A DNA stretch of 64,000 nucleotides from Aureimonas sp. Leaf324 (lineage in GTDB: Bacteria; Pseudomonadota; Alphaproteobacteria; Rhizobiales; Rhizobiaceae). Position 1 is the stretch's first letter. The number at the start of each line of letters is the position of its first letter. The position numbers were made by a program, and so were the translations under genes. This document shows, in pieces, positions 10,512-34,196 of this stretch. Location of the stretch: positions 30,563-94,562 of the forward strand of contig NZ_LMOH01000001.1 in the NCBI RefSeq assembly GCF_001423245.1. The letters are read 5' to 3'. The notes under the pieces are model-generated. The model was not told the origin of the DNA and did not search any database. It saw only the letters and a list, made by a program, of their open reading frames with translations.

Positions 10512-10567
10512 GGGTGGGAGCGGTGACTTCCCAACCTAGCGAGAGCGCGTTACCGTCTCATCGCTAC

Positions 10568-10617
10568 GGGGATGGGGTTCCCCCGCAACCGCCCGCGTCG
10601 GGCTGATGACTCCTATC
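10568..10617 (+). promoter_or_regulatory. Fluoride riboswitch (crcB motif)
   Basis: The aptamer shows the conserved order GGGGATGGGGTTC, then CCCC-GCAACCGCC, then GGGCTGATGACTCCTAT, matching the crcB/fluoride riboswitch consensus, including the AACCGCC and CTGATG elements. It lies 62 bp upstream of crcB on the same strand. Fluoride binding is expected to switch on the exporter. The hairpin at 10628-10655 is a good candidate for part of the expression platform. Confidence 0.93.
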
Positions 10618-10627
10618 GAAACCGCGG

Positions 10628-10655
10628 CGCATGCTCGGATTTTTCCGAGCATGCG
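10628..10655 (+). terminator. Hairpin downstream of the fluoride aptamer (expression platform candidate)
   Basis: An 11-bp perfect stem (10628-10638 with 10645-10655) closes a six-base loop ATTTTT. It lies just 3' of the aptamer and 13 bp before the Shine-Dalgarno AGGAG of crcB. There is no run of T after the stem, so it may act by structure rather than as a classic intrinsic terminator. Confidence 0.5.
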
Positions 10656-10679
10656 AACCCATGTTGATAGGAGACCCGC

Positions 10680-11111
10680 ATGTCCTTCACCAGTTGCGTC
10701 ATCGTCATGCTGGGTGGCGCGCTCGGCACGTTCCTGCGCCACGCCATCTCGGTCATCGCCCTGCCGATCAGCCGCGATCTGCCCTGGGGCACGATCCTAA
10801 TCAACATCGCGGGCTCCTTTGCGATCGGCCTGTTCGGGACGCTCACGCTCGCATCGGGCCGTTTCCCGGCTTCGGAGAACCTTCGTCTGTTCGTGATGAT
10901 CGGCATCTGTGGTGGCTTCACCACCTTCTCTTCGTTCAGCCTTCAGACGCTCGATCTCCTGCGGGCCGGCGCTGTGCTCCGCGCCATGCTGAACGTCGCC
11001 CTGTCGGTGGTCCTGTGCGTGGCGGCCGTTGCCGTAGGTCACCTCGTGGCATCTCAGTTCAACGACAGCGCCCAGCGTATCGCGCAGATCGACATCGAGG
11101 AGGATGCATAG
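10680..11111 (+). CDS. crcB: CrcB/Fluc fluoride channel
   Basis: A 143-residue dual-topology membrane protein with four helices, which exports toxic fluoride. It has the family core [13 protein letters not shown] near residue 12, a [16 protein letters not shown] segment with the key Asn near residue 42, and [17 protein letters not shown] near residue 76 (pore Thr and Phe residues). AGGAG precedes the ATG by 7 bp. It is controlled by the riboswitch directly upstream. A single crcB gene implies a homodimeric channel. Confidence 0.96.
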
Positions 11112-12111: not shown

Positions 12112-12203
12112 AACGTGCAACGCTTCGGCAAAGTGCGACTAGGAATCGTATCGTCCGCTCGGAGGCGGATATGAGAAAGGCACCCGCGGTGTGAACAGTC
12201 GAC

Positions 12204-12283
12204 AGCGGGTGGTCCGCTTCCGGGCGTCCGCTTCCTCGGAGCCAATCGGCGCGGCTGGGTGGTTTTCTGCCCGTCCGGTTTGG
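12204..12283 (+). repeat. Dispersed ~80-bp intergenic repeat, copy A
   Basis: The sequence starts AGCGGGTGGTCCGCTTCCGG, continues CGTCCGCTTCCTCGG and contains CTGGGTGG and CCGTCCGGTTTGG at the same spacing as copies B (13211-13290) and C (26409-26490). It lies in the convergent spacer between the LssY-like gene and catB. The internal pairing of the AGCGGA- and TCCGCT-type blocks suggests a folded RNA or DNA element. No transposase is associated with it. Confidence 0.6.
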
Positions 12284-13025: not shown

Positions 13026-13210
13026 GCCAGCGAGCGATCCGATGGATCGCCGCCCAGCTTCCAGCGTCAGCGACGAGGAAGCGCGATGTCGGTGGTTCGG
13101 TCTGCGGACTTCATATGCGGATCATGGCCCAATCGGGCGTCGATGCCAATCCGCTACGGCTGCTTTCGGATTACGCGCGTGACGGATCGAGCGTCGGTAA
13201 GGGGATCGAG

Positions 13211-13290
13211 AGCGGATGGACTGCTACCGGACGTCCGCTTACTCGGCGCCGATCGGCACTACCGGGTGGAAAGGAGATCGTCCGCTTCCG
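13211..13290 (+). repeat. Dispersed ~80-bp intergenic repeat, copy B
   Basis: It starts AGCGGATGGACTGCTACCGG, then GTCCGCTTACTCGGCGCC, ATCGGCAC, CCGGGTGG and a final TCGTCCGCTTCCGG. The blocks are colinear with copies A and C. It is located between catB and the short-chain dehydrogenase gene. Confidence 0.6.
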
Positions 13291-13373: not shown

Positions 13374-14339
13374 TCAAACTGTGTCCAACCCCGTCCATGC
13401 AGCGGACACTTGCCATAGGCTTTCGGCTGAGTCCGGATCGCATGCCCACGGACTGACACCCTTCCTTCCCGTGCTCGGCTCGTTGACGACCGCGACGTCG
13501 CAGTCCTCACAGTAGACCCCACCCATGCCGCTGAGCTGCGGGCTCGTGGCGCACCAGACGCTCGTGGCGGCCCCTTGCTGCACCGTCTTCATCCCGCGCT
13601 CGGGATTGACGATCGGGCGGCCCGCTTCGTCGAGTGCGTCGAACGAGGCGATCTCCTCCGCGCTGAGGTACCGGGCGAGATCGGTGAGGATCTGGCCTGG
13701 ATGAAGCGAGAAGGCCCTGATCCCGTGCTCTTGTCCTCGGTGGTCGAGTGCCATCGCAAAGAGGGCGTTGGCCGTTTTTGACTGACCGTAGGCGAGCCAC
13801 TTGTCGTAAGGGCGAACCCTGAAGTCGATGTCCTCGAAGTCGATCCCGGCGATCTGGTGGCCGCGCGATGAGACGCTGACAACGCGTGCCCCTTTGGCGG
13901 CGACGAGGGCCCGCCAGAGGCCGAGCGTGAGCCGGAAGTGGCCGAGGTGGTTCGTTGCGAGCTGAGCTTCGTGTCCTTCGGCGTCTCGTGTCTCCGGCGT
14001 TGCCATGATGCCCGCACTGTTGACGAGGATCGACACGGGTCGGCCGGCGGACACGACCCGACCAGCCAAGGCAGCGACGGACTGCGGATCGGCGAGATCC
14101 ATGAGCTCGACCGTCGCGCCAGCGAGTCCGCGCAAGGCGGATATTGCCCGCTCGGGACTGCGCGCAGGGACGATCACCTCCGCCCCAGCGTGAACAAGAG
14201 CGCGCGTCGTCTCGAGACCGAGCCCCGAAGCTCCTCCGGTCACAACGGCAAGCTTCCCCGAAAGATCGATCCCGGAGACGACCTCCATTGCCGTGCTGGC
14301 AGCACCGAAGCCGGAGCCGATGGGCGTTTGCTGGGTCAT
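13374..14339 (-). CDS. Short-chain dehydrogenase/reductase, ECF41-linked oxidoreductase
   Basis: A 321-residue classical-type SDR. It has an NAD(P)-binding TGGASGLGLE motif near residue 35, NSAGIMATPE near 110 and a catalytic Tyr-Lys pair in YGQSKTANALF near 189, resembling retinol-dehydrogenase-like SDRs. I chose the ATG at 14339; upstream codons would run into the sigma gene. It lies 98 bp downstream of the ECF41 sigma gene on the same strand. Oxidoreductases are one of the three partner classes known for ECF41 loci, so it is a likely member of that regulon. The C terminus (about the last 35 residues) is longer than usual. The substrate is unknown. Confidence 0.85.
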   Translation of the reverse strand: MTQQTPIGSGFGAASTAMEVVSGIDLSGKLAVVTGGASGLGLETTRALVHAGAEVIVPARSPERAISALRGLAGATVELMDLADPQSVAALAGRVVSAGRPVSILVNSAGIMATPETRDAEGHEAQLATNHLGHFRLTLGLWRALVAAKGARVVSVSSRGHQIAGIDFEDIDFRVRPYDKWLAYGQSKTANALFAMALDHRGQEHGIRAFSLHPGQILTDLARYLSAEEIASFDALDEAGRPIVNPERGMKTVQQGAATSVWCATSPQLSGMGGVYCEDCDVAVVNEPSTGRKGVSPWACDPDSAESLWQVSAAWTGLDTV

Positions 14340-15425: not shown

Positions 15426-15842
15426 CTAAGGGCGATCCGGTGTTGTCAGTTTGGTATCGTCCGTATCCACGACGAAGACGGCGAGGAGCTTGGAGGGATT
15501 GTTGTCACTCGCGTTGGCGCTGACGCCGTGGTGGTCGCCCGGCATCTCGACGAAGCTCTCGCCGACGCGGAAGACCTTCTCCGGCCCGTCGTTGATCCGG
15601 CTGCGCACCGCGCCTTCGATGATGGTTGCCGTGATGAAGGCGGATGCGGCGTGGGTGTGGGACGGCGAGGAGCCGCCCGGGCCGTACTCGACAAGGACGC
15701 CGCGCAGGCTCTTGCCGGGAACGGACGGCAGCGGATGGTCGAAGATCGTCGTGACGCGTGCCTCACCACTCGCGACGTCCGCCGCTAGGGTGGGGGCAGT
15801 TGAGACGGTGACGAGGGCAGCCAACAAGAGATTCCGGAACAT
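15426..15842 (-). CDS. Secreted cupin-domain protein
   Basis: A 138-residue product with a signal peptide (MFRNLLLAALVTVSTAPTLA) and one cupin barrel. The metal-binding motif is visible as GGSSPSHTHAASAF near residue 57 and PGDHHGVSANAS near residue 100. The activity is unknown; small cupins of this type act as binding proteins, isomerases or dioxygenases. It sits between the epimerase-like gene and the ECF41 sigma gene on the same strand, so it probably belongs to the same transcript and regulon. Cupins are not one of the three classic ECF41 partners. Confidence 0.82.
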   Translation of the reverse strand: MFRNLLLAALVTVSTAPTLAADVASGEARVTTIFDHPLPSVPGKSLRGVLVEYGPGGSSPSHTHAASAFITATIIEGAVRSRINDGPEKVFRVGESFVEMPGDHHGVSANASDNNPSKLLAVFVVDTDDTKLTTPDRP

Positions 15843-22418: not shown

Positions 22419-22895
22419 TCAAGTGACCGTTTCAGCCGGGAGACATTCAGCCTTGGCGATGGACTGCCGGACGTCGGGGAAGGCTGCAAGGACATCGAGT
22501 ATCCCGAGCTCCCCTTTCGGCAGGTCGCCGAACGTGTAGCCGTCCAGAACCGCCAGGAATGCCTGCGTCGCCTCCTTCAGTATCTTGCGGATGCCGCAGG
22601 CCCTCGCGATGACGCAGGAGCCGCAGTCGACAAGGTCGAACCCGTCCTCTGTCACCCGGACAACTTCGCCCACCGTGATCTCCCCGGGCGGGCGCGCCAT
22701 CTTGATGCCGCCCGAACGGCCGCGCACCGTCGTCACGAGGTTCGCGCGGCCGAGATCCTGGACCACCTTCATCAGATGGTTCTTCGAGATGCCGTAGGCC
22801 TGCGAGATCTCGGCGATTGAGGACAGGCGATCGGGATGGGCCGACAGGAACACCAGCACGCGGATCGAGTAGTCGGTGTAGAGGGTCAGCCGCAC
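22419..22895 (-). CDS. nsrR: NsrR, nitric-oxide-sensing Rrf2-family repressor
   Basis: A 158-residue Rrf2-type repressor. The winged helix spans residues 1-60 (MRLTLYTDYSIRVLVFLS and GISKNHLMKVVQDLG). The iron-sulfur ligands C91, C94 and C100 lie in DCGSCVIARACG, the NsrR pattern. NO destroys the cluster and releases the DNA. It is divergent from the truncated-haemoglobin/hmp pair, and two 23-bp sites with exact NsrR geometry lie in the shared spacer, so it should repress itself and those genes. Confidence 0.94.
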   Translation of the reverse strand: MRLTLYTDYSIRVLVFLSAHPDRLSSIAEISQAYGISKNHLMKVVQDLGRANLVTTVRGRSGGIKMARPPGEITVGEVVRVTEDGFDLVDCGSCVIARACGIRKILKEATQAFLAVLDGYTFGDLPKGELGILDVLAAFPDVRQSIAKAECLPAETVT

Positions 22896-22920
22896 GGCTA
22901 TGGATCCTTCGCTTCAGCAA

Positions 22921-22943
22921 AACATGTAGGACGCTTGCATCTT
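22921..22943. promoter_or_regulatory. Putative NsrR operator 1
   Basis: AACATGT-N9-GCATCTT has the exact 7-9-7 spacing of the NsrR consensus (AAGATGC-N9-GCATCTT). The right arm is perfect and the left arm has two mismatches. It lies 26 bp upstream of the nsrR start. Confidence 0.7.
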
Positions 22944-22969
22944 TTAGGCAATGTGCTACACGACAGCCA

Positions 22970-22992
22970 TAGATGCATCATCGATGCATGTT
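22970..22992. promoter_or_regulatory. Putative NsrR operator 2
   Basis: TAGATGC-N9-GCATGTT matches the NsrR consensus in 6 of 7 positions in each arm with correct spacing. It ends 16 bp before the haemoglobin start codon, a position that would block transcription of that gene. Confidence 0.75.
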
Positions 22993-23008
22993 ATGGCGAT
23001 CCCGTCCA

Positions 23009-23443
23009 ATGCGCCCGTTCGAAGTTGCTCCTGAACCCTGCCCACTCAGCGCAGCCGAACTGCGGCACTTGGTGTCGGCGCTCTATGGCGCGGTCCGCAG
23101 GGACGACCTGCTAGCGCCCATGTTCATGCCGCGGGTCTTAAACTGGCCCGCGCATCTGAAGCGTCTTGAGGCGTTCTGGTGCTCGGTCATGCTTGGCAGT
23201 GGCACCTATAAGGGCAATCCCTTCGGCGCCCATCTGCCTCTCCGCGACACACTTGAGCCCATGCATTTCGCGCGCTGGCTCTCGCTGTTCCATGCGACCG
23301 CGGAACAGGAGTTCGGTGCCGACCGCAGCGCCGCGATCTCGCAAAAGGCCGATCGGATCGCCGATAGCCTGAAAGCTGGGCTCCGGTTCCGGGCGTCGGC
23401 TCGGCCGCCTCCGGCTGCAACGGTTGATCCGCCTCTCGGCTGA
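23009..23443 (+). CDS. Group III truncated haemoglobin
   Basis: A 144-residue truncated globin. It has the group III features: AELRHLVSALYGAVRRDDLL near residue 18, an FW-containing E-helix region (LEAFWCSVMLGSGTYKGNPF) and a proximal-His segment HFARWLSLFHATAEQEF near residue 88. It probably binds NO or O2 and is placed for NO or nitrosative protection together with hmp. I chose the ATG at 23009, just after operator 2; earlier starts would place the operator inside the gene. The stop is 32 bp from hmp. Confidence 0.88.
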   Translation: MRPFEVAPEPCPLSAAELRHLVSALYGAVRRDDLLAPMFMPRVLNWPAHLKRLEAFWCSVMLGSGTYKGNPFGAHLPLRDTLEPMHFARWLSLFHATAEQEFGADRSAAISQKADRIADSLKAGLRFRASARPPPAATVDPPLG

Positions 23444-23475
23444 CGCCTTCCATCCTTCCACTAGGAGACAATGCC

Positions 23476-24708
23476 ATGACCTCGCCCCTTAGCGAGCGAA
23501 CAGTCGCGACCGTAAAGGCGACGATCCCAGCCCTCGAAGCCCACGGGCTCGAGATCGTCAGGACCATGTACGAACGCATGTTCCGCGATTCCGCGATCCG
23601 CGACCTGTTCAACCAGTCCCACCACGGCGAGACGGGCTCGCAGCCCAAGGCCCTAGCCGGGGCGATCCTCGCCTATGGGCGGAACATCGACAACCTTGCC
23701 GTCCTTGGCGAAGCCGTCGAGCGCATCGCGCAGAAGCACGTCGGGCTCCAGATCCGTCCCGAGCACTACCCCGTCGTCGCCGAGGCCCTGCTCGGCGCCA
23801 TCTCCGAGGTATTGGGCGAAGCCGCAACGCCCGAGGTGCTGGACGCCTGGGGCGAAGCCTACTGGTTCCTCGCCAACATCCTGATCGGAAGGGAAGGAGC
23901 GCTCTACCGGGAGCTCGAAACAGCCGACGGCGGCTGGTCCGGATGGCGGCAGTTCACGATCGAGGCCAAGATCCGGGAAAGCGACATCGTGACGTCGTTT
24001 GTGCTGCGGCCCGCGGACGGCGGAGCCGTGATCCGGCACCGCCCGGGGCAGTATCTGACCTTCCGGCTGAGCCTTCCCGGCGACGTCGTGTTGAAGCGCA
24101 ACTACAGCATCTCCTCCGCGCCCGACGGCCAGACCTATCGCATCACCGTCAAGCGCGAGCTGAAGGGCTCGGCGTCCAACTGGCTGCACGACGCAGCCGA
24201 GGTCGGCACCATCCTCGACGTTGCGCCCCCCGCCGGCGAGTTCGTCCTGAAGTCCGAGACGGACGCTCCCGTCGTGCTCCTGTCCGGCGGCGTCGGACTG
24301 ACGCCGATGGTATCGATGCTCGAGACGCTCGTCGGACGAGGGGAGGGCGTCCCCGTGCACTACGTCCACGGCACGCAGGACGGAGCGACCCATGCGATGG
24401 GCAAGCACGTCAAGCGCCTCGTGTCCGGTCGGTCCGAGGCACGGCTGACGACCTTCTACCTGTCACCCCGCCCGGAAGACGAGATCGGCCGAACGCACGA
24501 CGTCGACGGCATGATCACCCTCGACTGGCTGCGCGAGCACACGCCGATCGAGAGCGCGCATTACTACCTTTGCGGTCCGAAGGCGTTCCTCGCGGCGTTC
24601 GTCCATGGCCTGCAACGGATCGGCGTGCCGCCCGCACGCATCCACTACGAGTTCTTCGGGCCTGCCGACGACCTGTCCGAGGAGCCGGATGATCGCCTGG
24701 CGGCCTGA
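23476..24708 (+). CDS. hmp: Hmp, flavohaemoglobin nitric oxide dioxygenase
   Basis: A 410-residue flavohaemoglobin that converts NO and O2 to nitrate with NAD(P)H. The globin domain (1-140) shows the B10 Tyr in TMYERMF, an E7-type Gln in GSQPKAL and the proximal His in IAQKHVGLQIRPEHYP. The FAD domain has RNYSISSAP near residue 210. The NAD domain has LLSGGVGLTPMVSML near 273 and YYLCGPKAFL near 362. It is at full family length and intact, downstream of the truncated globin and under the predicted NsrR control. Confidence 0.97.
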   Translation: MTSPLSERTVATVKATIPALEAHGLEIVRTMYERMFRDSAIRDLFNQSHHGETGSQPKALAGAILAYGRNIDNLAVLGEAVERIAQKHVGLQIRPEHYPVVAEALLGAISEVLGEAATPEVLDAWGEAYWFLANILIGREGALYRELETADGGWSGWRQFTIEAKIRESDIVTSFVLRPADGGAVIRHRPGQYLTFRLSLPGDVVLKRNYSISSAPDGQTYRITVKRELKGSASNWLHDAAEVGTILDVAPPAGEFVLKSETDAPVVLLSGGVGLTPMVSMLETLVGRGEGVPVHYVHGTQDGATHAMGKHVKRLVSGRSEARLTTFYLSPRPEDEIGRTHDVDGMITLDWLREHTPIESAHYYLCGPKAFLAAFVHGLQRIGVPPARIHYEFFGPADDLSEEPDDRLAA

Positions 24709-24770
24709 ACCGTCGGGGCTCGCGTGTGCAGGCCCCCTTCCACCTTCCCGAAACCTGGAACTCTCCCGAC

Positions 24771-26237
24771 ATGCGTATCCGAAGTTCGACCAGCCGTTTA
24801 GGAACGACGCTGGCCTGCATCGTTCCCGCCATCCTCATGCCGACGCTGGCGCAGGCGCACGTGAAGTGGTTCGCGCCCTACATCGTCGGCGCCCCGCCTG
24901 CGCCCGTCTCGAGGACGGCCGCTGATCCCTGGTTTTGGGCTGCCATCGCGCTGGTCCTCGTCTTCTTCGTCGGCACGCGCCTCGTCGAGCGCTCGGCGGC
25001 GGGCGAGGGGATCCTACGCGGCATGGACCGCGTCACCGATCCCCTCTGGACGCGCCTTGACGATTTCGTCTGCGTCGTCGTCGGCGCCTTCTTCGTCGCC
25101 ATCTTCGCGGTTGGCGGCGTCTACCTGACGCCCGACCTCAAGACCCCTAACGAGTGGGTGTCGTGGGTCCAGCTCCTGATCGCCTTCGGCGTCTTCTCGA
25201 AGCGCACGATGCCGCTGTCTGCGGCCGGGATCATCTTCCTCTGGGTGATCGCCCTCCGGGACTACGACTTCTTCCATCTGCTCGACTATCTGGCGCTTGG
25301 GCTGGGCGTCGCGGCCTATCTCGTGCTTGCCTCGTCGACGAAGCCCGAATGGCGCAAGCACCGCTTCGAGGCGCTGCGCTGGGGCGTTGCGATTGCCCTG
25401 ATGTGGTCGAGCCTCGAGAAGTTCGCCTATCCCGACTGGTTCTACCCGCTCGTCGAGGAGAAGCCGTTCCTGACCTTCGGCATGCCGCGGGACGTCTTCA
25501 TCCCGATGGCGGGCGTCGCCGAGTTCACGATGGGCTTCGGCTTGATCTGGACGCCGCTCGTGCGCAGGCTCTCGGCGATCGCGCTGTTCCTCATCATGGG
25601 CGCCGCCGTCTACCCCTTCGGCCGGGTCGATCTCATCGGCCACGCGCTCATCATGGCGATCTTCGTCGCCATCGCCGCCGACCACACCCGGGAGGTCCAC
25701 TTCCTCCCGGCGATCAAGCGCTCGCTCGCCGGGGTCCCGGCCGGGATCGCCGCCGCCCTCGTGATCTTCGTGACGGGCTACTGGGGGCTGCACATTGCCT
25801 TCTACGGCCTGGAGGGACGTGCGGTCGCCATGCCGACCGAGATGGCGACGCACACGTACTCGCCCGAGCATCCGCATGGCCCGAAGGCGCTTGAGAGCGT
25901 CGTCTCCGGCGAGCTCGAGGGGGGCATGCACATGTCTCATGGACAAACCACATCCGCACCCGGAGGCGGGGCGACCGCTGCCTACGCGGCGACCATGGCG
26001 ACGATGCATGGTCCGATGATGGAGGGCATGCGCCATCCCGACCCCGACGTGGCCTTCGTGCTCGGCATGATCCCGCATCATCAGGGTGCAATCGACATGG
26101 CGAAGGTGCAGCTTCAGTACGGCGCCGACCCGAGCAACAAGGCGCTGGCCGAGCACATCATCCTGGAACAGCAGCAGGAAATTGACGCCATGACCGATTG
26201 GCTTCGGCAGCGGGGCGTGACCGCACCGAGCCGGTAG
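24771..26237 (+). CDS. Polytopic membrane protein fused to a C-terminal DUF305 domain
   Basis: A 488-residue protein in two parts. Residues 1-350 contain a signal-like N terminus (ending QAHVKWFAP) and about nine hydrophobic helices, with DoxX-like stretches such as WSSLEKFAYPDWFYPL near residue 222. After a linker with HMSHGQTTSAPGGG, residues 395-485 form a DUF305 domain (HGPMMEGMRHPDPDVAFV and MIPHHQGAIDMAKVQL). I chose the ATG at 24771; TMs and DUF305 are in one frame. The architecture suggests a membrane anchor displaying a Met/His metal-binding domain in the periplasm. The exact function is unknown. It follows hmp by 62 bp. Confidence 0.8.
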   Translation: MRIRSSTSRLGTTLACIVPAILMPTLAQAHVKWFAPYIVGAPPAPVSRTAADPWFWAAIALVLVFFVGTRLVERSAAGEGILRGMDRVTDPLWTRLDDFVCVVVGAFFVAIFAVGGVYLTPDLKTPNEWVSWVQLLIAFGVFSKRTMPLSAAGIIFLWVIALRDYDFFHLLDYLALGLGVAAYLVLASSTKPEWRKHRFEALRWGVAIALMWSSLEKFAYPDWFYPLVEEKPFLTFGMPRDVFIPMAGVAEFTMGFGLIWTPLVRRLSAIALFLIMGAAVYPFGRVDLIGHALIMAIFVAIAADHTREVHFLPAIKRSLAGVPAGIAAALVIFVTGYWGLHIAFYGLEGRAVAMPTEMATHTYSPEHPHGPKALESVVSGELEGGMHMSHGQTTSAPGGGATAAYAATMATMHGPMMEGMRHPDPDVAFVLGMIPHHQGAIDMAKVQLQYGADPSNKALAEHIILEQQQEIDAMTDWLRQRGVTAPSR

Positions 26238-26291: not shown

Positions 26292-26408
26292 GCATACGCA
26301 CAGTGCATTTCTATACAATCAGCAACGAAGCGCCGACCAATCCGACGATAGCGAATGTCCGCTATCGAGAAGAGCTTCTGTGCTCGCGAACGACAGAGAC
26401 GGGTCGAT

Positions 26409-26490
26409 AGCGGATGAGCCGCTTCGAGGCGTCCGCTTTCTCCGCTACGATCGCCACGACCGGGTGGGTACCTGCCTGTCCGCTTCGAAG
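26409..26490 (+). repeat. Dispersed ~80-bp intergenic repeat, copy C
   Basis: It begins AGCGGATGAGCCGCTTCGAG, followed by GCGTCCGCTTTCTCCGCT, ATCGCCACGACCGGGTGG and CTGTCCGCTTCGAAG, colinear with copies A and B. It lies between the DUF305 fusion gene and the first cobalamin riboswitch, on the same strand as the other two copies. Confidence 0.6.
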
Positions 26491-26566
26491 CCCCATCCAG
26501 GACAAGCGGACGTTGGGGATAGAGACGCACGGCGCGTTGACTCGAACCCTCGCTGCCGCACTATAT

Positions 26567-26756
26567 GCGGCAGTCACGGTCCGCCGCATCGCAAGATGTG
26601 GTGGCTAAGAGGGAACCCGGTGAGCCGCAGGGCAAGGCCGGGGCTGCCCCCGCAACTGTAAGCGGCGAGCCATCCGTCCATTCCGCGTCACTGGGGCATT
26701 CGCTCCGGGAAGGCCGGACGGAAGGCGACGACCCGCGAGCCAGGAGACCTGCCGCG
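26567..26756 (+). promoter_or_regulatory. Cobalamin riboswitch upstream of nrdAB
   Basis: The landmarks are in order: AAGAGGGAACCCGGTG, GGGGCTGCCCCCGCAACTG with TAAGCGG (the B12 box region), CACTGGG, CCGGGAAGGCCGG, and the closing GCGAGCCAGGAGACCTGCC. Outer arms GCGGCAG (26567) and CTGCCGC (26750) can form P1. Adenosylcobalamin is expected to lower nrdAB expression. The platform lies between 26757 and the start at 26895. Confidence 0.95.
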
Positions 26757-26894
26757 ACTTGGTAGAACCTTCCCTGGGCGGGGTGTCCCGGTGGATCGTG
26801 TGCCTGTCGCGGCGCCGCGCTCCCGTCCGGGATCCGCGTGCCGTCCGGTCTCGCGTCCGCTCGGCCTTTGCCTCCACTTCGCTGGAGCAGCCGA

Positions 26895-29801
26895 ATGTCT
26901 CTTCTTCCTACCCCCGCGGCCCTGCCGCATCCGTTCCCCGCAGCGCACGCCGCCAACGACGCGTCCGCACCGTCCGACACGGCGACCGCGCGCGTGATCC
27001 GGCGCAACGGCTCGGTGTCGCCCTTCGACGCCTCCAAGATTGCGGTCGCGATGACCAAGGCGTTTCTCGCCGTCGAAGGACGCCAGGCCGCCGCCTCGAC
27101 CCGCGTCCACGACGTCGTGCGCAGCCTTGCCGACGAGGTCGTCGCCGCGCTGGCGCGACGCTCGGGCGGCGACCGCCTCCTGCACATCGAGGACATCCAG
27201 GACCAGGTCGAGCTCGCGCTGATGCGCTCCGAGCACCCGAAGGTCGCCCGAGCCTACGTTCTCTACCGCGAGGAACACGCCCGCGCCCGCGCCTCACAGG
27301 CCGCCGCGTCCGAGACGCCCGCCATGCCGACCCTGTCCGTCCGGCAGGCCGACGGTTCGCTCGCGCCCCTCGACGAAGCCCGGCTCGACCGCGTCGTCGC
27401 CGAAGCGTCCGACGGTCTCGACGGCGTGTCGCCCGACGCGATCCTCGCCGAGACGCGGCGCAACCTCTACGACGGCCTGACGCTGGCGGAGCTGGCCGAA
27501 GCGCCCGTCATGGCGGCGCGCACCCTGATCGAGACCGAGCCGAACTACGCCTTCGCCTCGGCGCGCCTCCTCCTCGACCGCTTGCGCGGCGAGGCGCTGT
27601 CGTTCGTCTCCGGAGCGCCCGCCGCGCCGACGCACGCGGACATGGGCCGGCTTTACGGCGAAGCCTTCCCCGCCTACCTCGACCGCGGCATCGCGGCCGG
27701 CCTGATCGACCCGGAACTCGCCCGCTTCGACGTCGCCCGCTGTGCTGCCGCGCTGATCCCCGAATGCGACCGCCTGTTCCAGTTCCTCGGCCTCCAGACG
27801 CTCTACGACCGCTACTTCCTTCAGACCGATGGGGTGCGCTTCGAGCTGCCGCAGTGGTTCTTCATGCGCGTCGCGATGGGCCTCGCGCTGCGCGAGGTCG
27901 ACCGCGAGGCGCGGGCCATCGAGTTCTACGAACTCCTGTCGAGCTTCCGCTTCATGGCCTCGACGCCGACGCTGTTCAACGCGGGCACCTCGCGCCCGCA
28001 GCTCTCCTCCTGCTTCCTCACCACCGTCGCCGACGACCTCGGCGGCATCTTCAAGGCAGTGAAGGACAACGCGCTGCTCGCCAAGTACTCCGGCGGCCTC
28101 GGCAACGACTGGACGCCCGTCCGTGGCCTTGGCGCCCACATCAAGGGGACGAACGGCCAGAGCCAGGGCATCGTGCCGTTCCTCAAAGTGGCCAACGACA
28201 CCGCGATCGCGGTCAACCAGGGCGGCAAGCGCAAGGGCGCGGTCTGCGCCTACCTCGAGACCTGGCATATCGACGTCGAGGAGTTCCTCGACTTGCGCAA
28301 GAACACGGGCGACGACCGGCGGCGCACGCACGACATGAACACGGCGCACTGGGTGCCGGACCTCTTCATGCAGCGCGTGGCCGAGAACGGCGACTGGACC
28401 CTGTTCTCGCCCGACGAGGTGCCGGGCCTGCACGACCTCTACGGCGCGGCGTTCAAGGAAGCCTACGAGGGCCACGAGGCGCGGGCGGCACGCGGCGAGA
28501 TCCGCGTCCACCGCCGCGTGAAGGCGGTCGACCTGTGGCGGCGCATGCTGACCATGCTGTTCGAGACCGGGCACCCGTGGATCACGTTCAAGGACCCGTG
28601 CAACGTCCGCTCGCCGCAGGGCCATGTCGGCGTCGTGCACTCGTCGAACCTCTGCACCGAGATCACCCTCAACACCTCGGCCTCCGAGGTCGCCGTCTGC
28701 AATCTCGGCTCGGTGAACCTCGCCGCCCACGTGACTGCCGGCGGCCTCGACCGGGCGCTGCTGTCGCGCACCGTGAAGACGGCGATGCGGATGCTCGACA
28801 ACGTCGTCGACATCAACTTCTACACGATCCCCGAGGCGCGCCAGTCCAACCTGCGCCACCGTCCGGTCGGCCTCGGTCTCATGGGCTTCCAGGACGCGCT
28901 CCAGACCCTGCGCCTCGCCTATGCCAGCGAGGAGGCGGTCGCCTTCGCCGACACCAGCATGGAGGCGCTCTCCTACGAGGCGATCTCGGCCTCGGTGGAC
29001 CTCGCCGCCGAGCGCGGGCGCTACCCATCCTTCGACGGCTCGCTCTGGTCGAAGGGCATCCTGCCGATCAACAGCCTGGAACTCCTGGCCGAGGCTCGCG
29101 GCGGCACCCTCGACCTCGACCGTTCGGCGACGTTGGACTGGGAGGCCCTGCGCGTCCGCGTCCGCTCGGTCGGCATGCGCAACTCCAACACGATGGCAAT
29201 CGCGCCGACGGCGACGATCTCGAACATCTGCGGCGTGTCGCAATCGATCGAGCCCGCCTACCAGAACCTCTTCGTCAAGGCGAACATGTCGGGCGACTTC
29301 ACGGTGGTGAACGCCGCCCTGGTGCGCGACCTGAAGGCAAGGGGCCTCTGGGACGAGGTCATGGTCTCCGACCTCAAGTACTACGACGGGTCGCTCGGTC
29401 CCATCGACCGCGTGCCGGACGACTTGAAGCGCCTCTACGCCACCGCCTTCGAGATCGACTCCGCGTGGCTGATCGAGGCGGCCGCCCGGCGGCAGAAGTG
29501 GATCGACCAGGGGCAGTCCCTGAACCTCTACCTCGCCGCGCCGTCGGGCAAGGCGCTCGACGCGCTCTACCGCCTCGCCTTCGACCGCGGCCTGAAGACG
29601 ACCTACTACCTGCGCACCCGCTCGGCGACGCATGTCGAGAAGTCCACCCTGAAGGTCACCGACGGCAAGCTGAACGCCGTTGCGGCCGCGCCGATGGCGG
29701 CGGCGGCGACGGCCTCGGTGCCCGCGGAGATCCGCGTGCCGGACGCGGCATGGGGCAGGGCCTGCTCGATCGACGATCCAGAGTGCGAGGCCTGCCAGTA
29801 G
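26895..29801 (+). CDS. nrdA: NrdA, class I ribonucleotide reductase large subunit with two ATP cones
   Basis: A 968-residue catalytic subunit that reduces ribonucleotides to deoxyribonucleotides. Two N-terminal ATP-cone regulatory domains are visible (about residues 33-130 and 140-230). The catalytic barrel has [19 protein letters not shown] with the thiyl-radical Cys, [11 protein letters not shown] and the radical-transfer Tyr pair in [12 protein letters not shown]-terminal Cys pair follows (DPECEACQ). I chose the ATG at 26895 (GGAG 9 bp upstream). The pair with a class Ic small subunit fits the Chlamydia-type enzyme. Control by the cobalamin riboswitch suits a B12-independent isozyme used when a B12-dependent reductase elsewhere lacks cofactor. 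Confidence 0.96.
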
Positions 29802-29874
29802 GCCGTCACTCGCAATGATCTTCCTCAGCCCGCCGACCGGCGGCGGGCCACTTCTCCCTTCGAAAGACGCTCCC

Positions 29875-31023
29875 ATGCTCGACTGGAACGACTCCGTCCC
29901 CGCGACCGCCGCGAACATCCCCGCCGCCACGCCCGTCCCCGACGACATCGCACCGCCGCCGGCGACTGCGACCGAGATCACGACCGACACCGTCGATCGC
30001 AACGGCGGCCGCGTCTCGGTGTCGGAGAAGCGGATGATCAACGCCCGCGCCGACGTGAACCAGCTCCTGCCGATGCGCTACGGCTGGGCCTGGGAGAAGT
30101 ACCTCTCGGCCTGCAACAACCACTGGATGCCGACCGAGGTCTCCATGCAGGCCGACATCGCGCTGTGGAAGTCGGCGGGGGGCCTCACTGAGGACGAGCG
30201 GCGCATGGTGAAGCGCAACCTCGGCTTCTTCGCCGCCTCGGAGAGCCTGGTGGCCAACAACATCGTGCTGGCGATCTACCGCCACCTGACGAACCCCGAG
30301 TGCCGCCAGTACCTCCTGCGACAGGCCTTCGAGGAGGCGGTCCACACGCACACGTTCCAGTACGTCGTGGAGAGCCTTGGGCTCGACGAGGGCGAGCTGT
30401 TCAACATGTACCGCGAGGTGCCGTCCATCACCGACAAGGCGGCCTGGGCACTCAAGCACACGCAGGGCATCGAGGACCCGCACTTCCGCACCGGGACGCC
30501 GGAGGCGGACCGCGCCTTCCTGAAGGACCTCGTCGCCTTCTACGTCGTGTTCGAGGGCATGTGGTTCTACACGGGCTTCGCGCAGATCCTGTCGCTCGGG
30601 CGGCGGGGGAAGATGCAAGGCATCGCCGAGCAGTACCAGTACATCCTGCGCGACGAGAGCATTCACCTGAACTTCGGCATCGACGTCATCAACCAGATCA
30701 AGGCGGAGAACCCGCACCTCTGGACGCCCGCCTTCCAGGACGAGTTGCGCGCCATGCTGCGTGAGGGCGCCGAGCTGGAGGCGGCCTACGGTCGCGACAC
30801 GATGCCGACCGGCTTCCTCGGGCTGAACGCCTCGAGCTGCGAGGCGTACATGCGCTTCATCGCCAACCGCCGCTGCGCCCAGCTCGGGCTTGCCCCCGTG
30901 TTCCCCGAGACCGAGAACCCGTTCCCGTGGATGTCGGAGGTGATGGACCTGAAGAAGGAGAAGAACTTCTTCGAGACCCGCGTCATCGAGTACCAGAACG
31001 GCGGCGCGCTCGCCTGGGACTGA
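29875..31023 (+). CDS. nrdB: NrdB, class Ic-type (R2c) ribonucleotide reductase small subunit
   Basis: A 382-residue R2 subunit that supplies the radical-equivalent metal cofactor. Ligands are E123, E154, H157, E227, E261 and H264, with F161 at the position of the radical tyrosine. All seven residues match Chlamydia trachomatis R2c (E89, E120, H123, E193, E227, H230 and F127) with a constant offset of 34. The enzyme is therefore predicted to use a Mn(IV)/Fe(III) cofactor instead of a tyrosyl radical, which would be resistant to NO and peroxide. I chose the ATG at 29875, as a longer start lacks support. It is 73 bp after nrdA, in the same riboswitch-controlled operon. Confidence 0.95.
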
Positions 31024-31160
31024 CGTGAGGCGTGTCCGAGAGGGAGGGGGCCGTGAACGAGGCCCCTGCGCCGTTCGTCGCGCTAGGCAAGATATACGGA
31101 CATAAAGATGTCCTTATGTCCTCATTGACACCCCGGCTGAGATCGTGTTGAATGGTCGCT

Positions 31161-31357
31161 GTCGAGGTTCCCCATCCCAGGCATGGCGGTGGGGCTAAGA
31201 CGGGAAGCCAGTGGCGCCCTTGCGGGCGGAGTCTGGCGCTGCCCCCGCAACTGTAAGCGGCGAGCGGCGGTTTCCTCGGGTGCCACTGCGCCTTGCAAGA
31301 GGCTCGGGAAGGCCGGAACCGTCGCATTGACCCGTGAGCCAGGAGACCTGCCTCCGA
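31161..31357 (+). promoter_or_regulatory. Cobalamin riboswitch upstream of mesX-mesD
   Basis: It shows GGGGCTAAGACGGGAAGCC-type sequence, then GCGCTGCCCCCGCAACTG with TAAGCGG, GTGCCACTG, CTCGGGAAGGCCGG and GTGAGCCAGGAGACCTGCC. The downstream region resembles that after the first riboswitch: both have GGTGGATCG after a G-rich hairpin-forming stretch. It is expected to shut off the B12-independent methionine synthase when cobalamin is available. Confidence 0.95.
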
Positions 31358-31488
31358 CGCAAGACGTTCCTCGGACGGGGGTTCCTCCGGTGGATCGCGC
31401 TCGAAGCCCGCGCCCATGGCCACCGCCATGGAGGCACTTCCCTTGCGCGTTCGACCCATGCCCCCCGCCTGACCAGAGACGGTGGGTC

Positions 31489-32475
31489 ATGACGAACAGC
31501 GCCTTCGCCTTCACGATCAGCAGCGTCCCGTTCGACGAGGACTACCGTCCCGCCGACCACACGCGCATCACCACGAACTTCGCCAACCTCGCCCGCGGGG
31601 ACCGTCGTCGGGAGAACCTTCGGAACACGCTCGCGATGATCGACAACCGCTTCAACTCCCTCATGCCTTGGGACAACCCGGCGGGGGACCGTTACGCGGT
31701 CGAGCTTGCGATCGTCACCGTCGACCTGACGGTCGGAGCGCGCGAGGAGGCCGAGACCTTGCCCCTGATCGAGATTCTGGCGGCGACCGTCGTCGACAGG
31801 CGCACCGGCGAGCGGTTCGACGGTATGGTCGGCAACAACCTCTCGTCCTACGTCCGCGACTACGACTTCAGCGTCCGCCTGGCGGACCACCTCCGAGAGC
31901 ACCCTGAAGGCGGCGCGCCGGAGGGATTCGGCGAGTTGCACGGCAACCTGTTCAAGCGCCTCCTGGCCTCCGGCGCCTATCGGGAACGGTTCGCGAAGCC
32001 GCCCGTCGTCTGCCTCAGCGTGTCCAGCCGGGAGACCTACCGCCGGACCGCGAACGCCCACCCCATCCTCGGAGTGGAATACGGGGCCGAACGCCCTTCC
32101 AGGACCGACGACTACTTCGCCAGGATGGGGATGCGGGCGCGCTACTTCCTGCCGCCGGGCGGCGTCGCGCCGCTCGCCTTCTACCATCTCGGCGACCTGA
32201 CGGGCGACTATTCCAATGGCGAGCTGGCCAGCACGGTCGCCGTGATGGAGACCTTCCAGAAGATCTACCGCCCGGAGATCTACAATGCGAACTCCCCGGC
32301 GGCCGAGCACTACCGACCGAGCCTGACCTGGCAGGACTACTCCCTGACCCGCATCGTCTACGACCGGGACGAGCGCAGCCGGCTGGCCGTCGAGCAGGGC
32401 CGCTTTGCCGAACAGCACGTCATCAAGCCGCTTGGCGCCCAGCTCGAACGCTGGTCGGCGACCGCGGACCTATGA
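31489..32475 (+). CDS. mesX: MesX (DUF1852), partner of methionine synthase MesD
   Basis: A 328-residue DUF1852 protein. This family is required together with MesD for oxygen-dependent, folate-independent methionine synthesis. Visible family stretches are FTISSVPFDEDYRPADHTRI at the N terminus, FANLARGDRRRENLRNTLA near residue 33 and LAFYHLGDLTGDYSNGEL near residue 230. I chose the ATG at 31489, which starts the conserved N terminus; the 130-bp leader back to the riboswitch holds the expression platform. It is 28 bp upstream of mesD. Its biochemical step is not fully established; a role in methyl-donor generation or activation is inference. Confidence 0.93.
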   Translation: MTNSAFAFTISSVPFDEDYRPADHTRITTNFANLARGDRRRENLRNTLAMIDNRFNSLMPWDNPAGDRYAVELAIVTVDLTVGAREEAETLPLIEILAATVVDRRTGERFDGMVGNNLSSYVRDYDFSVRLADHLREHPEGGAPEGFGELHGNLFKRLLASGAYRERFAKPPVVCLSVSSRETYRRTANAHPILGVEYGAERPSRTDDYFARMGMRARYFLPPGGVAPLAFYHLGDLTGDYSNGELASTVAVMETFQKIYRPEIYNANSPAAEHYRPSLTWQDYSLTRIVYDRDERSRLAVEQGRFAEQHVIKPLGAQLERWSATADL

Positions 32476-32503
32476 ACCGAACGGACACGAGAGGACAACC
32501 AGC

Positions 32504-33532
32504 ATGACGATCCTGTTGCCGACCACCACGGCGGGCAGCCTGCCGAAGCCTTCCTGGCTCGCCGAGCCCCGGACGCTCTGGTCGCCCTGGAAACTCGAAG
32601 GATACGAGCTTCTCGCGGGCAAGCGGGATGCCCTGCGCTTGGCCTTGGACGACCAGCGGCAGGCGGGGATCGACATCGTCGGCGACGGCGAACAGACGCG
32701 CCAGCACTTCGTCACCACCTTCGTCGAGCATCTCGGCGGCGTCGACTTCGAGAAGCGCGAGGTCGTCCGAATCCGCAACCGCTACGATGCCAGCGTGCCG
32801 ACCGTGGTCAGCGCCGTCTCGCGCACGAAGCCGGTCTTCATCGAGGACGCGAGGTTCTTGCGGGCGCAGACCGCGCAGCCGATCAAGTGGACGCTTCCGG
32901 GTCCCATGACGATGATCGACACGCTCCACGACGCCCACTACCGGAGCCGCGAGAAGCTCGCGTGGGAGTTCGCGTGCATCCTCAACGAGGAGGCGAGGGA
33001 ACTCGAGGCCGTCGGCGTCGACATCGTCCAGTTCGACGAGCCGGCGTTCAACGTCTTCTTCGACGAGGCGAACGACTGGGGGATAGCGGCCCTGGAACGG
33101 GCCGCCGAGGGGCTGAAGGCCGAGACCGCGGTCCACATCTGCTACGGCTACGGGATCAAGGCCAACACCGACTGGAAGATGACCCTCGGCTCGGAATGGC
33201 GGCAGTACGAGAAGACCTTCCCCAACCTCCAAAAGTCGGGGATCGACATTGTCTCGCTCGAGTGCCGGAACTCGCGCGTGCCGATGGACCTGATCGAACT
33301 CGTCCGCGGCAAGAAGGTGATGGTCGGCGCGATCGACGTGGCAACCGACGCGATCGAAACGCCCGAGGAGGTCGCCGACACCCTGCGCAATGCGCTCCGG
33401 TTCGTGGACGCCGACAAGCTGATCCCCGCGACGAACTGCGGCATGGCCCCCCTGTCCCGCGACGTGGCACGGGGCAAGCTGAAGGCGTTGGGCGCGGGTG
33501 CCGCGATCGTCCGCGAGGAGCTTGCGCGCTGA
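32504..33532 (+). CDS. mesD: MesD, core MetE-like B12-independent methionine synthase
   Basis: A 342-residue protein corresponding to the catalytic C-terminal half of MetE, without the N-terminal folate-binding half (full MetE has about 750 residues). Zinc-ligand-type segments are visible: VHICYGYG near residue 212, SLECRNS near 253 and TNCGMAPLSRDVA near 312. The substrate-binding DIVQFDEPAFNVFF is near 170. Its size and its neighbour mesX place it in the MesD family, which methylates homocysteine with an unknown oxygen-dependent donor. GAGAGGA precedes the ATG. It is under the second cobalamin riboswitch. Confidence 0.93.
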   Translation: MTILLPTTTAGSLPKPSWLAEPRTLWSPWKLEGYELLAGKRDALRLALDDQRQAGIDIVGDGEQTRQHFVTTFVEHLGGVDFEKREVVRIRNRYDASVPTVVSAVSRTKPVFIEDARFLRAQTAQPIKWTLPGPMTMIDTLHDAHYRSREKLAWEFACILNEEARELEAVGVDIVQFDEPAFNVFFDEANDWGIAALERAAEGLKAETAVHICYGYGIKANTDWKMTLGSEWRQYEKTFPNLQKSGIDIVSLECRNSRVPMDLIELVRGKKVMVGAIDVATDAIETPEEVADTLRNALRFVDADKLIPATNCGMAPLSRDVARGKLKALGAGAAIVREELAR

Positions 33533-33605: not shown

Positions 33606-34196
33606 CTAGAGCCAGCCGGCGAGGATGCCGACGCCGCCCAGCGCGAAGACGGCACCTGCGGCGCGGGCCACGGTCCGTCCGTAGCGGCCGATCAACGAGG
33701 CAATCCCGAACGCCAGCGCGATGCCCGTCGCGTGCAGGAGGGCGGTCGCCGCGATGAACCCGGCGGCGTAGGTCAGCCCGCCGGCCGTCTCGGGCATCTC
33801 CGCCCCGTGGGCGTGTCCGTGGAAGACGGCGAACACCCCGACCAGAGCCATGGCGACGCCGACGGGCATCGGCCGGCCGAGGGCGGCCGCCCCGCCGATC
33901 ACGACGCTGGAGAGTGCAATGCCGAGTTCGACGAACGGCACGTCGACCTGTGCGACGCCGAGCGAGAAGCCGACGACCATCATGCCGACGAAGGCGGCGG
34001 GGACCAGCCACAGCGCACGGCCGCCGAGGACGTAGGCGAACACGCCGACCGCGACCATCGCGAGGATGTGGTCGAGACCGCCGATCGGGTGCTCGAAGCC
34101 ATGGAGGAAGCCGGCCGTGTCGCCGACCCCGGTATGGGCGAAGGCGACTGTCGGAAGGAGGGAGGCCGCTAGGGCAAGGGGAAACGCTCTGCGCAT
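33606..34196 (-). CDS. hupE: HupE/UreJ-family putative nickel or cobalt transporter
   Basis: A 196-residue membrane protein with a signal-like first helix (ending VAFAHTGVG) and about six helices. The family motif GFLHGFEHPIGGLDHILAMVAVG-type is near residue 29, and a HGHAHG metal-binding loop is near residue 125. HupE/UreJ proteins import nickel and in many bacteria cobalt. Lying beside a B12-linked module, a cobalt role is attractive, but no cobalamin riboswitch precedes this gene. It is followed by the copper cassette on the same strand, 195 bp upstream. Confidence 0.85.
   Translation of the reverse strand: MRRAFPLALAASLLPTVAFAHTGVGDTAGFLHGFEHPIGGLDHILAMVAVGVFAYVLGGRALWLVPAAFVGMMVVGFSLGVAQVDVPFVELGIALSSVVIGGAAALGRPMPVGVAMALVGVFAVFHGHAHGAEMPETAGGLTYAAGFIAATALLHATGIALAFGIASLIGRYGRTVARAAGAVFALGGVGILAGWL

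Follow-up and report, generated by a model that had tools for sequence, protein, structure and literature searches.

Two Adjacent Operons behind Cobalamin Riboswitches

The stretch of DNA analyzed here (the window) comprises 64,000 nucleotides from Aureimonas sp. Leaf324, whose genome served as the host genome (G000: 4.4 Mb, 30 contigs, 99.93% complete). Its forward strand carries two adjacent operons, nrdAB, encoding a class Ic ribonucleotide reductase (RNR), and mesXD, encoding MesX and the core methionine synthase MesD. Family models upheld the gene identities proposed in an initial annotation made from the letters of the sequence, and a complete cobalamin riboswitch precedes each operon, as had also been claimed there; both match the Rfam model RF00174 (gathering score 31.5 bits, model length 189) from end to end (Table 1). 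Riboswitch 1 begins slightly earlier than annotated.

The assignment to class Ic, already made in that annotation, was confirmed by the models NF005544 and NF005550 and by the radical site of NrdB. The radical-Tyr position is occupied by Phe, aligned with a Phe of chain 1syy, while chain 2ani has Tyr; we take 1syy to be the Chlamydia trachomatis class Ic protein and the aligned residue to be F127. Replacement of the radical Tyr by Phe is the mark of class Ic RNR, which carries a Mn/Fe cofactor and depends on O2 for activation. The O2 reliance suspected of MesD agrees with Price et al. (2021; PMC7857596), according to whom MesD needs MesX and O2, and neither B12 nor MetF (papers are cited here for the passages that bear on each point). 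A search for a solved structure of MesX gave no credible match (best E 0.9).

The putative promoter elements were recognized in the sequence; a consensus promoter scanner gave neither the nrdAB nor the mesXD promoter, and the TTGACA that follows the palindrome upstream of mesXD is also present in six Sphingomonas loci. Each aptamer is followed by a short hairpin. The loop CGGGG of the first, GGGCGGGGTGTCCC, is complementary to CCCCG in the aptamer, suggesting a kissing interaction; this hairpin is not in the minimum-energy fold of its stretch folded alone, and a spacer of ~105 nt separates it from the nrdA start codon. The start codons of the four genes, all ATG and identical with the gene starts in Table 1, were picked by eye from the sequence. 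An N-terminal NrdA extension encoded from the post-aptamer hairpin onwards was considered; that frame is open in the related genome G168 and in plasmid pAU20b of Aureimonas sp. AU20, and in the window an additional base interrupts it, so the annotated ATG is preferred.

Table 1. Positions of the operon features and of related elements, in window coordinates unless a contig or locus is named
Feature	Position	Strand	Basis
Putative -35 element TTGACT of nrdAB	26537-26542	+	Sequence; TTGAC in all 8 aligned nrdA leaders
Cobalamin riboswitch 1, nrdAB leader	26560-26770	+	RF00174, 125.2 bits, model 1-189 of 189
Post-aptamer hairpin GGGCGGGGTGTCCC	26776-26789	+	GGCGGGGTGTCC identical in 8/8 leaders
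nrdA, class Ic RNR large subunit with ATP cones	26895-29801	+	PF02867, PF00317, PF03477 (2 stretches); NF005544, 1653 bits, over cut-off
nrdB, class Ic small subunit R2c	29875-31023	+	NF005550, 662 bits, over cut-off; alignment to 1syy and 2ani
20-bp palindrome ACATAAAGATGTCCTTATGT, predicted operator of a SahR-type methionine-cycle regulator	31100-31119	+	2 mismatches to consensus
Putative mesXD promoter TTGACA-N17-TTGAAT	31125-31153	+	Sequence
Cobalamin riboswitch 2, mesXD leader	31148-31369	+	RF00174, 108.3 bits, model 1-189 of 189
Post-aptamer hairpin GGACGGGGGTTCC	31373-31385	+	Leader alignment
mesX (PF08908, formerly DUF1852), partner of MesD, O2-dependent	31489-32475	+	PF08908, 520 bits
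mesD, core methionine synthase without folate domain, 342 aa	32504-33532	+	NF006589, 664 bits, over cut-off; PF01717
HupE gene	33606-34196	-	
nrdJ	G000:C12:50422-52569		NF005736 equivalog, 2283 bits, over cut-off
metH	G000:C18:9253-12819		Over cut-off
Dispersed ~70-base repeat	26397-26470; 12198-12262; 13203-13269		
Same repeat around the G168 module	L107:6411-6455, 13817-13855, 15718-15791		
NrdB remnant in AU20	L114:9575-9742		~60 codons, in-frame stops, beside mesXD
Thioesterase (hot-dog, 4HBT) genes behind their own cobalamin riboswitch, divergent from mesXD	L043:7831-8748; L010:8479-9186; L099:8851-9615; also L019, L022, L040, L044, L050, L051, L064, L081		
Thioesterase gene of G155	L109:9023-9736		52% to that of L043; directly downstream of riboswitch-nrdAB
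GbcA-like Rieske oxygenase behind a cobalamin riboswitch	L127:3434-5012 (G062); L131:14563-16127 (G121)		Below equivalog cut-off; beside nrdAB in both

B12-Dependent Counterparts in the Host and the Proposed Backup

The initial annotation had expected nrdJ and metH elsewhere in the genome, and both are present above the cut-offs of their models, so that the interpretation does not fail on their absence. The genome has nrdJ as its one RNR besides nrdA, and metH is present in one full-length copy. The host genome holds three cobalamin riboswitches. The third stands before a gene of the CbtA cobalt-transporter type, and CobW and CobO domains are encoded beyond it in the same direction; cobH is found at a distance of about 6 kb on the opposite strand. 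Judged from cobH and these CbtA/CobW/CobO-type genes, the host has B12-synthesis genes, which would make shortage of B12 or cobalt a likelier setting for the gene pair than a host devoid of B12. The earlier description of a set of genes for survival without cobalamin holds as regards a B12-free backup and is revised as regards the setting.

Taken as a whole, the arrangement is very probably a two-operon backup, off with plentiful cobalamin and on when it is scarce, that serves B12 or cobalt shortage. With B12 present, NrdJ would supply deoxyribonucleotides and MetH methionine, and the riboswitches, bound to their predicted ligand, would shut nrdAB and mesXD. When B12 falls, perhaps through cobalt shortage in a host that makes it, both leaders would open and an O2-dependent pair would take over, namely the class Ic RNR, a Mn/Fe enzyme independent of B12, and MesX-MesD, which needs neither B12 nor methyl-folate. 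The mode of control is presumably translational or Rho-dependent.

Riboswitches before Class I RNR and the Presence of NrdJ

The genus was represented by 21 genomes, the host included (G numbers denote genomes and L numbers fetched loci; L107 is the G168 module, L109 is from G155, L114 from G162, L127 from G062 and L131 from G121, and L122 is contig C18 of G000). In genus genomes other than the host, NrdJ was recognized by PF02867 and frame length, the NrdJ model having been applied to the host alone. An NrdJ-type PF02867 match occurs in 20 of the 21, as does CobH, and the exception is the same for both, G158. A relative of the NrdB studied here is present in nine genomes. Eight of them have NrdJ together with nrdAB, and in all eight a riboswitch precedes nrdAB; the single case among the nine with no riboswitch nearby is G158.

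Seven MesX-bearing genomes outside the genus (G062, G081, G096, G098, G121, G126, and G321) extended this comparison. A class I RNR behind a riboswitch was found in the NrdJ-positive G062, G098, and G121 (class Ic) and G126 (class Ib), and one without a riboswitch in the NrdJ-negative G081 and G096. Pooled with the genus, a riboswitch precedes class I RNR in 12/13 NrdJ-positive versus 0/3 NrdJ-negative genomes (Fisher p 0.007, relatedness ignored). This correlation is what the logic of a backup predicts, with one exception, G321.

Several observations weigh against the proposed backup. G321 has NrdJ, yet no riboswitch precedes its nrdIEF, and G158 keeps metH and three cobalamin riboswitches elsewhere, hence it is not a B12-free organism. 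On the side of mesXD, G081 and G121, both of the host's family, have metH and mesXD with no riboswitch beside mesXD and a metR-like gene adjoining mesX, and in G062, which has riboswitch-mesXD, no metH match reaches the cut-off that 26 of 27 genomes exceed. The leaders themselves are long, with about 120 nt between aptamer and start codon; their post-aptamer parts fold no better than shuffles (z -0.28 and -1.19), and no intrinsic terminator that could act as expression platform was found on the + strand.

Two Predicted Inputs at mesXD

Control of mesXD was followed across 80 mesX loci, the best 80 MesX matches among genome contigs, with flanks of up to 10 kb on each side. Riboswitch counts across loci rest on our own B12-box pattern, and Rfam was run on part of them; every pattern-predicted riboswitch was borne out in the loci also searched with Rfam, and Rfam found no RF00174 in the pattern-empty loci L125, L126, L133-L136, and L069. 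A riboswitch lies directly upstream of mesX in 31 of the 80 loci and divergently beside it in 10 more, and together these 41 make up every locus with a title other than beta- or gammaproteobacterial. By pattern, none of the 39 beta/gammaproteobacterial loci has one beside mesX (one of them, L080, offers just 313 bases upstream of mesX), and RF00174 gave none in the seven of these checked. One of the 41 riboswitch loci, L015, is titled Arthrobacter sp. TPD3018, and its mesX is almost the same as the one in Sphingomonas aquatilis (L018); the record is probably mislabelled or contaminated.

A palindrome with consensus ATATAARGANNTCYTTATAT occurs with at most three mismatches in 43 of 44 direct-riboswitch mesX loci, at a distance of 203-236 bases upstream of the B12-box end; L079 is the single locus that misses it. 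The consensus was composed after inspection of the mesX sites, and metH promoters thus served as an independent test; all three examined contain the palindrome, with 0 mismatches in the host and G162 and 1 in G168. It was found before none of 11 nrdA riboswitches and before none of 20 mesX genes without a direct riboswitch. Mononucleotide shuffles never gave a site with ≤3 mismatches (0/880), nor did dinucleotide shuffles of the host metH contig give the palindrome (0/200).

SahR sites are described as 20-bp palindromes, with metH as a core and metE2 as a genome-specific SahR target (Leyn et al. 2014; PMC4239095). Because the palindrome common to the metH promoters matches this description, mesXD appears to be under two inputs, a signal from S-adenosylhomocysteine (SAH) at the promoter and B12 at the leader; the form of the site and the common target metH point to a regulator of the SahR type. 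The operator would act as a second lock on mesXD: a low SAH signal would open transcription of both metH and mesXD, and the riboswitch would then decide whether mesXD is needed.

In the divergent loci, a LysR gene of MetR type lies behind the riboswitch, either together with a hot-dog thioesterase gene or with that gene disrupted or missing. MetR-like boxes were seen upstream of mesX in 11 loci without a direct riboswitch, five with one mismatch and six with two; shuffles reach such a box in 1.1% and 11.6% of cases, respectively, and the evidence from the boxes is modest. The Rhizobiales-type divergent loci may nevertheless keep a B12 input by way of riboswitch-controlled metR.

If only nrdAB were functionally under B12 control, mesXD would be mainly a methionine-cycle gene with a weak or vestigial riboswitch. 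The near-constant palindrome fits such a reading, as do the ten Rhizobiales-type loci without a direct riboswitch and the lack of one beside mesXD in G081 and G121. We nonetheless regard it as very improbable, since the Rfam scores of the mesX aptamers tested run from 102 to 134 bits, the post-aptamer hairpin is unchanged between three Sphingomonas loci and the window, and in those same ten loci a divergent metR-type operon lies behind a riboswitch with MetR-like boxes before mesX.

As a separate observation, the thioesterase gene behind its own cobalamin riboswitch and divergent from mesXD recurs in 11 loci, four from Sphingomonas and seven of Rhizobiales type. It possibly relieves acyl-CoA build-up while a B12-dependent mutase is idle; a literature search combining three terms found no paper with all of them.

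Origin and Probable Movement of the Pair

MesX was found in seven of the 21 genus genomes, all of them among the nine with NrdB (Fisher p 3e-4, relatedness ignored). Only two of the seven, G000 and G168, have nrdAB and mesXD adjacent with both riboswitches. A third, AU20 (G162), holds a relic of the pair: its chromosomal riboswitch-mesXD lies behind a C-terminal remnant of NrdB, and riboswitch-nrdAB is on pAU20b (G162 contig C3), the best plasmid match of the window's NrdA (89.6%). The remnant argues that AU20 mesXD descends from a joined nrdB-mesX locus. In the other four (G151, G152, G153, and G156) the two operons are widely separated or belong to different contigs, and each has its riboswitch; G155 and G158 have nrdAB without mesX. 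The expectation that relatives conserve the pairing was therefore met in part, by two intact copies and a relic, but conservation is limited overall.

In a MesX tree of 72 of 95 rows (23 beta/gammaproteobacterial rows were left out to thin it, and the bootstrap had not fully settled), the window sequence groups with those of G168 and G162 in a clade (100/100) that lies within Sphingomonas, and G151, G152, G153, and G156 group with Devosia and G096. This split placement indicates two acquisitions within one genus. The leader of riboswitch 2 agrees with Sphingomonas mesX leaders, as does its hairpin; GGACGGGGGTTCC is identical in the window, G168, G162, and Sphingomonas L008, L010, and L012, and different in Brevundimonas L023. 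Duplication of one riboswitch as the origin of the pair was rejected, as riboswitch 1 and its hairpin match the nrdA leaders of the genus and riboswitch 2 matches Sphingomonas mesX. The pair would thus have formed by the joining of a genus-like riboswitch-nrdAB unit to a Sphingomonas-descended riboswitch-mesXD unit, and would since have moved, or been lost in parts. The patchy distribution in the genus and the descent of mesX sustain the earlier view of the module as accessory and probably transferable.

A mobile island spreading between species as one unit is an explanation to which we give slightly less than even chances. G000 and G168 have positions 26400-33525 in common at 92% identity and nothing (0%) in the 5 kb on either side, so that homology ends sharply, and the flanks of mesXD in G162 differ as well. 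In a MetH tree, G167 and G159 are the neighbours of G000 and G169 is that of G168, and these three genomes lack an NrdB or MesX match. Between G000 and G168, nucleotide identity is 97.8% for mesX and 87.5% for metH. A dispersed repeat borders the module on its upstream side and occurs three times around the G168 copy (Table 1); it might have helped rearrangement. In G168, a resolvase gene lies 2.7 kb beyond the upstream end of the common block. Against an island of this kind, nrdA identity (90.7%) is near that of nrdJ (91.3%), which fits ancestral presence with losses, and no integrase, transposase or other recombinase was identified among the window genes beside the module, although no systematic search was made for integrases, transposases or target-site duplications. 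Comparison of flanks as proof of mobility is weakened, as the core-gene controls vary too: shared flank amounts to 2-3% for metH (left flank), 21-60% for nrdJ, and 82-99% for cobH. Movement of the module is likely, with loss of an older locus still compatible with the variable core flanks and the ordinary divergence of nrdA. The host metH is on a 13-kb contig (L122), and its left flank is not common to G168 or G162 (2-3%), unlike the cobH region.

Parallel Pairings of RNR and mesXD

Riboswitch-controlled RNR operons accompany mesXD in other lineages as well. In L043, from a metagenome-assembled Xanthobacteraceae genome, mesX, mesD, and a flavin reductase gene are followed by riboswitch-nrdI-nrdE-nrdF, and in L067 and L073 riboswitch-nrdIEF lies beyond metR, at distances from mesX of 2.3 and 3.8 kb, respectively. 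The L067 NrdE is class Ib over the cut-off (TIGR04170) and shares 89% identity with the NrdE of L043 and 97% with that of L073. In G062, a riboswitch-nrdAB operon of class Ic, its nrdB frame interrupted close to the end, stands 5.7 kb away from mesXD, and between the two lie a riboswitch and a GbcA-like Rieske oxygenase gene; G121 has a riboswitch and a GbcA-like gene after nrdAB. In G155, a thioesterase gene follows riboswitch-nrdAB directly. Acinetobacter sp. NIPH 2100 (L069) carries nrdAB ~2.5 kb from mesXD without a riboswitch. Split pieces of a MetH-like methyltransferase were also seen in both G062 and G121.

These pairings bear on whether the operons of the window stand together by chance, both being riboswitch-regulated and having landed side by side once. 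Such an accident is in keeping with the adjacency being intact in just two genus genomes plus a relic, with the four genus genomes in which the separate operons each have a riboswitch, and with the finding of no NrdA or NrdB match in the Sphingomonas or Brevundimonas mesX flanks fetched (up to 10 kb on each side). We consider it unlikely, however, because L043, L067, and L073 (class Ib) and G062 (class Ic) likewise have a riboswitch-controlled class I RNR at most 10 kb from mesXD. With 4 and 60 as estimated numbers of independent lineages, at least four in 60 at 20 kb per 4.5 Mb has p about 2e-4. The order-level survey gave a clear MesX in 2 of 397 genomes, plus a weak match in G182, too few for statistics on the pairing.

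Similar pairings made from different parts suggest that grouping is favoured rather than accidental, and the differing RNR classes and orders argue for repeated assembly. Alphaproteobacteria might, as a tentative reading about which we have somewhat more doubt than confidence, repeatedly and independently assemble B12-free islands from different parts, clusters of mostly O2-using substitutes for several B12-dependent steps, each substitute behind a cobalamin riboswitch. Such islands would comprise an RNR of class Ic or Ib; MesXD, under a direct riboswitch and SahR-type operator or under riboswitch-controlled metR; the hot-dog acyl-CoA thioesterase; and, in two relatives, the GbcA-like Rieske oxygenase, which could replace corrinoid-dependent betaine demethylation.

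Neighbouring Genes

The HupE gene had been drawn into the module by the initial annotation. The gene is real and adjoins SCO1, CopC-CopD, DUF1775, PCuAC, and PepSY genes; since it lies outside the block common with G168 and among these copper-type genes, we do not assign it to the module. Positions 22419-26237, immediately upstream and likewise outside the module, encode an NsrR/RirA-like Rrf2 regulator (below equivalog cut-offs), a flavohemoprotein, and a long protein with a CopM-type domain at its end (both over their cut-offs). At 10559-11111, a fluoride riboswitch (57.7 bits) precedes a crcB-type gene, as expected.

Significance and Comparison with Known Systems

The strongest parts of the analysis are the correlation between riboswitch, NrdJ, and CobH, the two-input mesXD promoter, and the parallel pairings. 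They link MesXD, for which the 2021 paper still had no known methyl source, to control by B12 in many alphaproteobacteria. The case of G158, with no riboswitch where nrdJ and cobH are absent, offers a natural experiment on the way RNA switches track enzyme redundancy, and the separate RNR-mesXD pairings make the idea of B12-free islands testable by genome counting. A prediction also follows on how B12-making bacteria may handle cobalt shortage with O2 present.

Riboswitch control of B12-independent isozymes is already known. Isozymes of B12-dependent enzymes form a category of cobalamin-riboswitch targets (PMC3766115), control in the metE/metH case has been stated and tested (PMC9600662), and Borovok 2006 is credited with the riboswitch-controlled Streptomyces class Ia nrdABS (PMC5962746). 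The initial annotation's statement that such control is known for each type is documented for nrd and metE, but among the papers listed in searches that left subscription literature mostly outside we found none on cobalamin-riboswitch control of mesXD or on clustering of mesXD with RNR. In the known systems, a riboswitch keeps the B12-free enzyme repressed as long as its B12-dependent counterpart is able to work. As in metE/metH and Streptomyces nrdABS, a B12-free enzyme stands behind a riboswitch and its B12-dependent counterpart (nrdJ, metH) is in the genome. The window differs in having MesXD and not MetE, an RNR of class Ic, adjacent operons, and an extra palindrome in common with metH.

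Price et al. describe methionine synthesis without B12 or 5-methyl-tetrahydrofolate, requiring O2, for Sphingomonas koreensis genes, a copy other than the one studied here, and report that MetH co-occurs with MesD/MesX in 75% of cases (PMC7857596). The window resembles their MesD/MesX in that PF08908 is next to the core methionine synthase and metH is in the genome, and it lacks beside mesXD the flavin reductase gene often found near it. The word "riboswitch" is absent from their main text; here, of the 80 loci fetched, each of the 41 with a title other than beta- or gammaproteobacterial has a cobalamin riboswitch beside mesXD, while G081 and G121 have none there. With the SahR regulon the window shares a 20-bp palindrome at the promoter, in common with metH (the host metH promoter has 0 mismatches to the mesX consensus). 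PF08908-metE2 is described as a MetR target (PMC4239095); unlike in the SahR and MetR regulons set out in that paper, the predicted operator is here combined with a cobalamin riboswitch.

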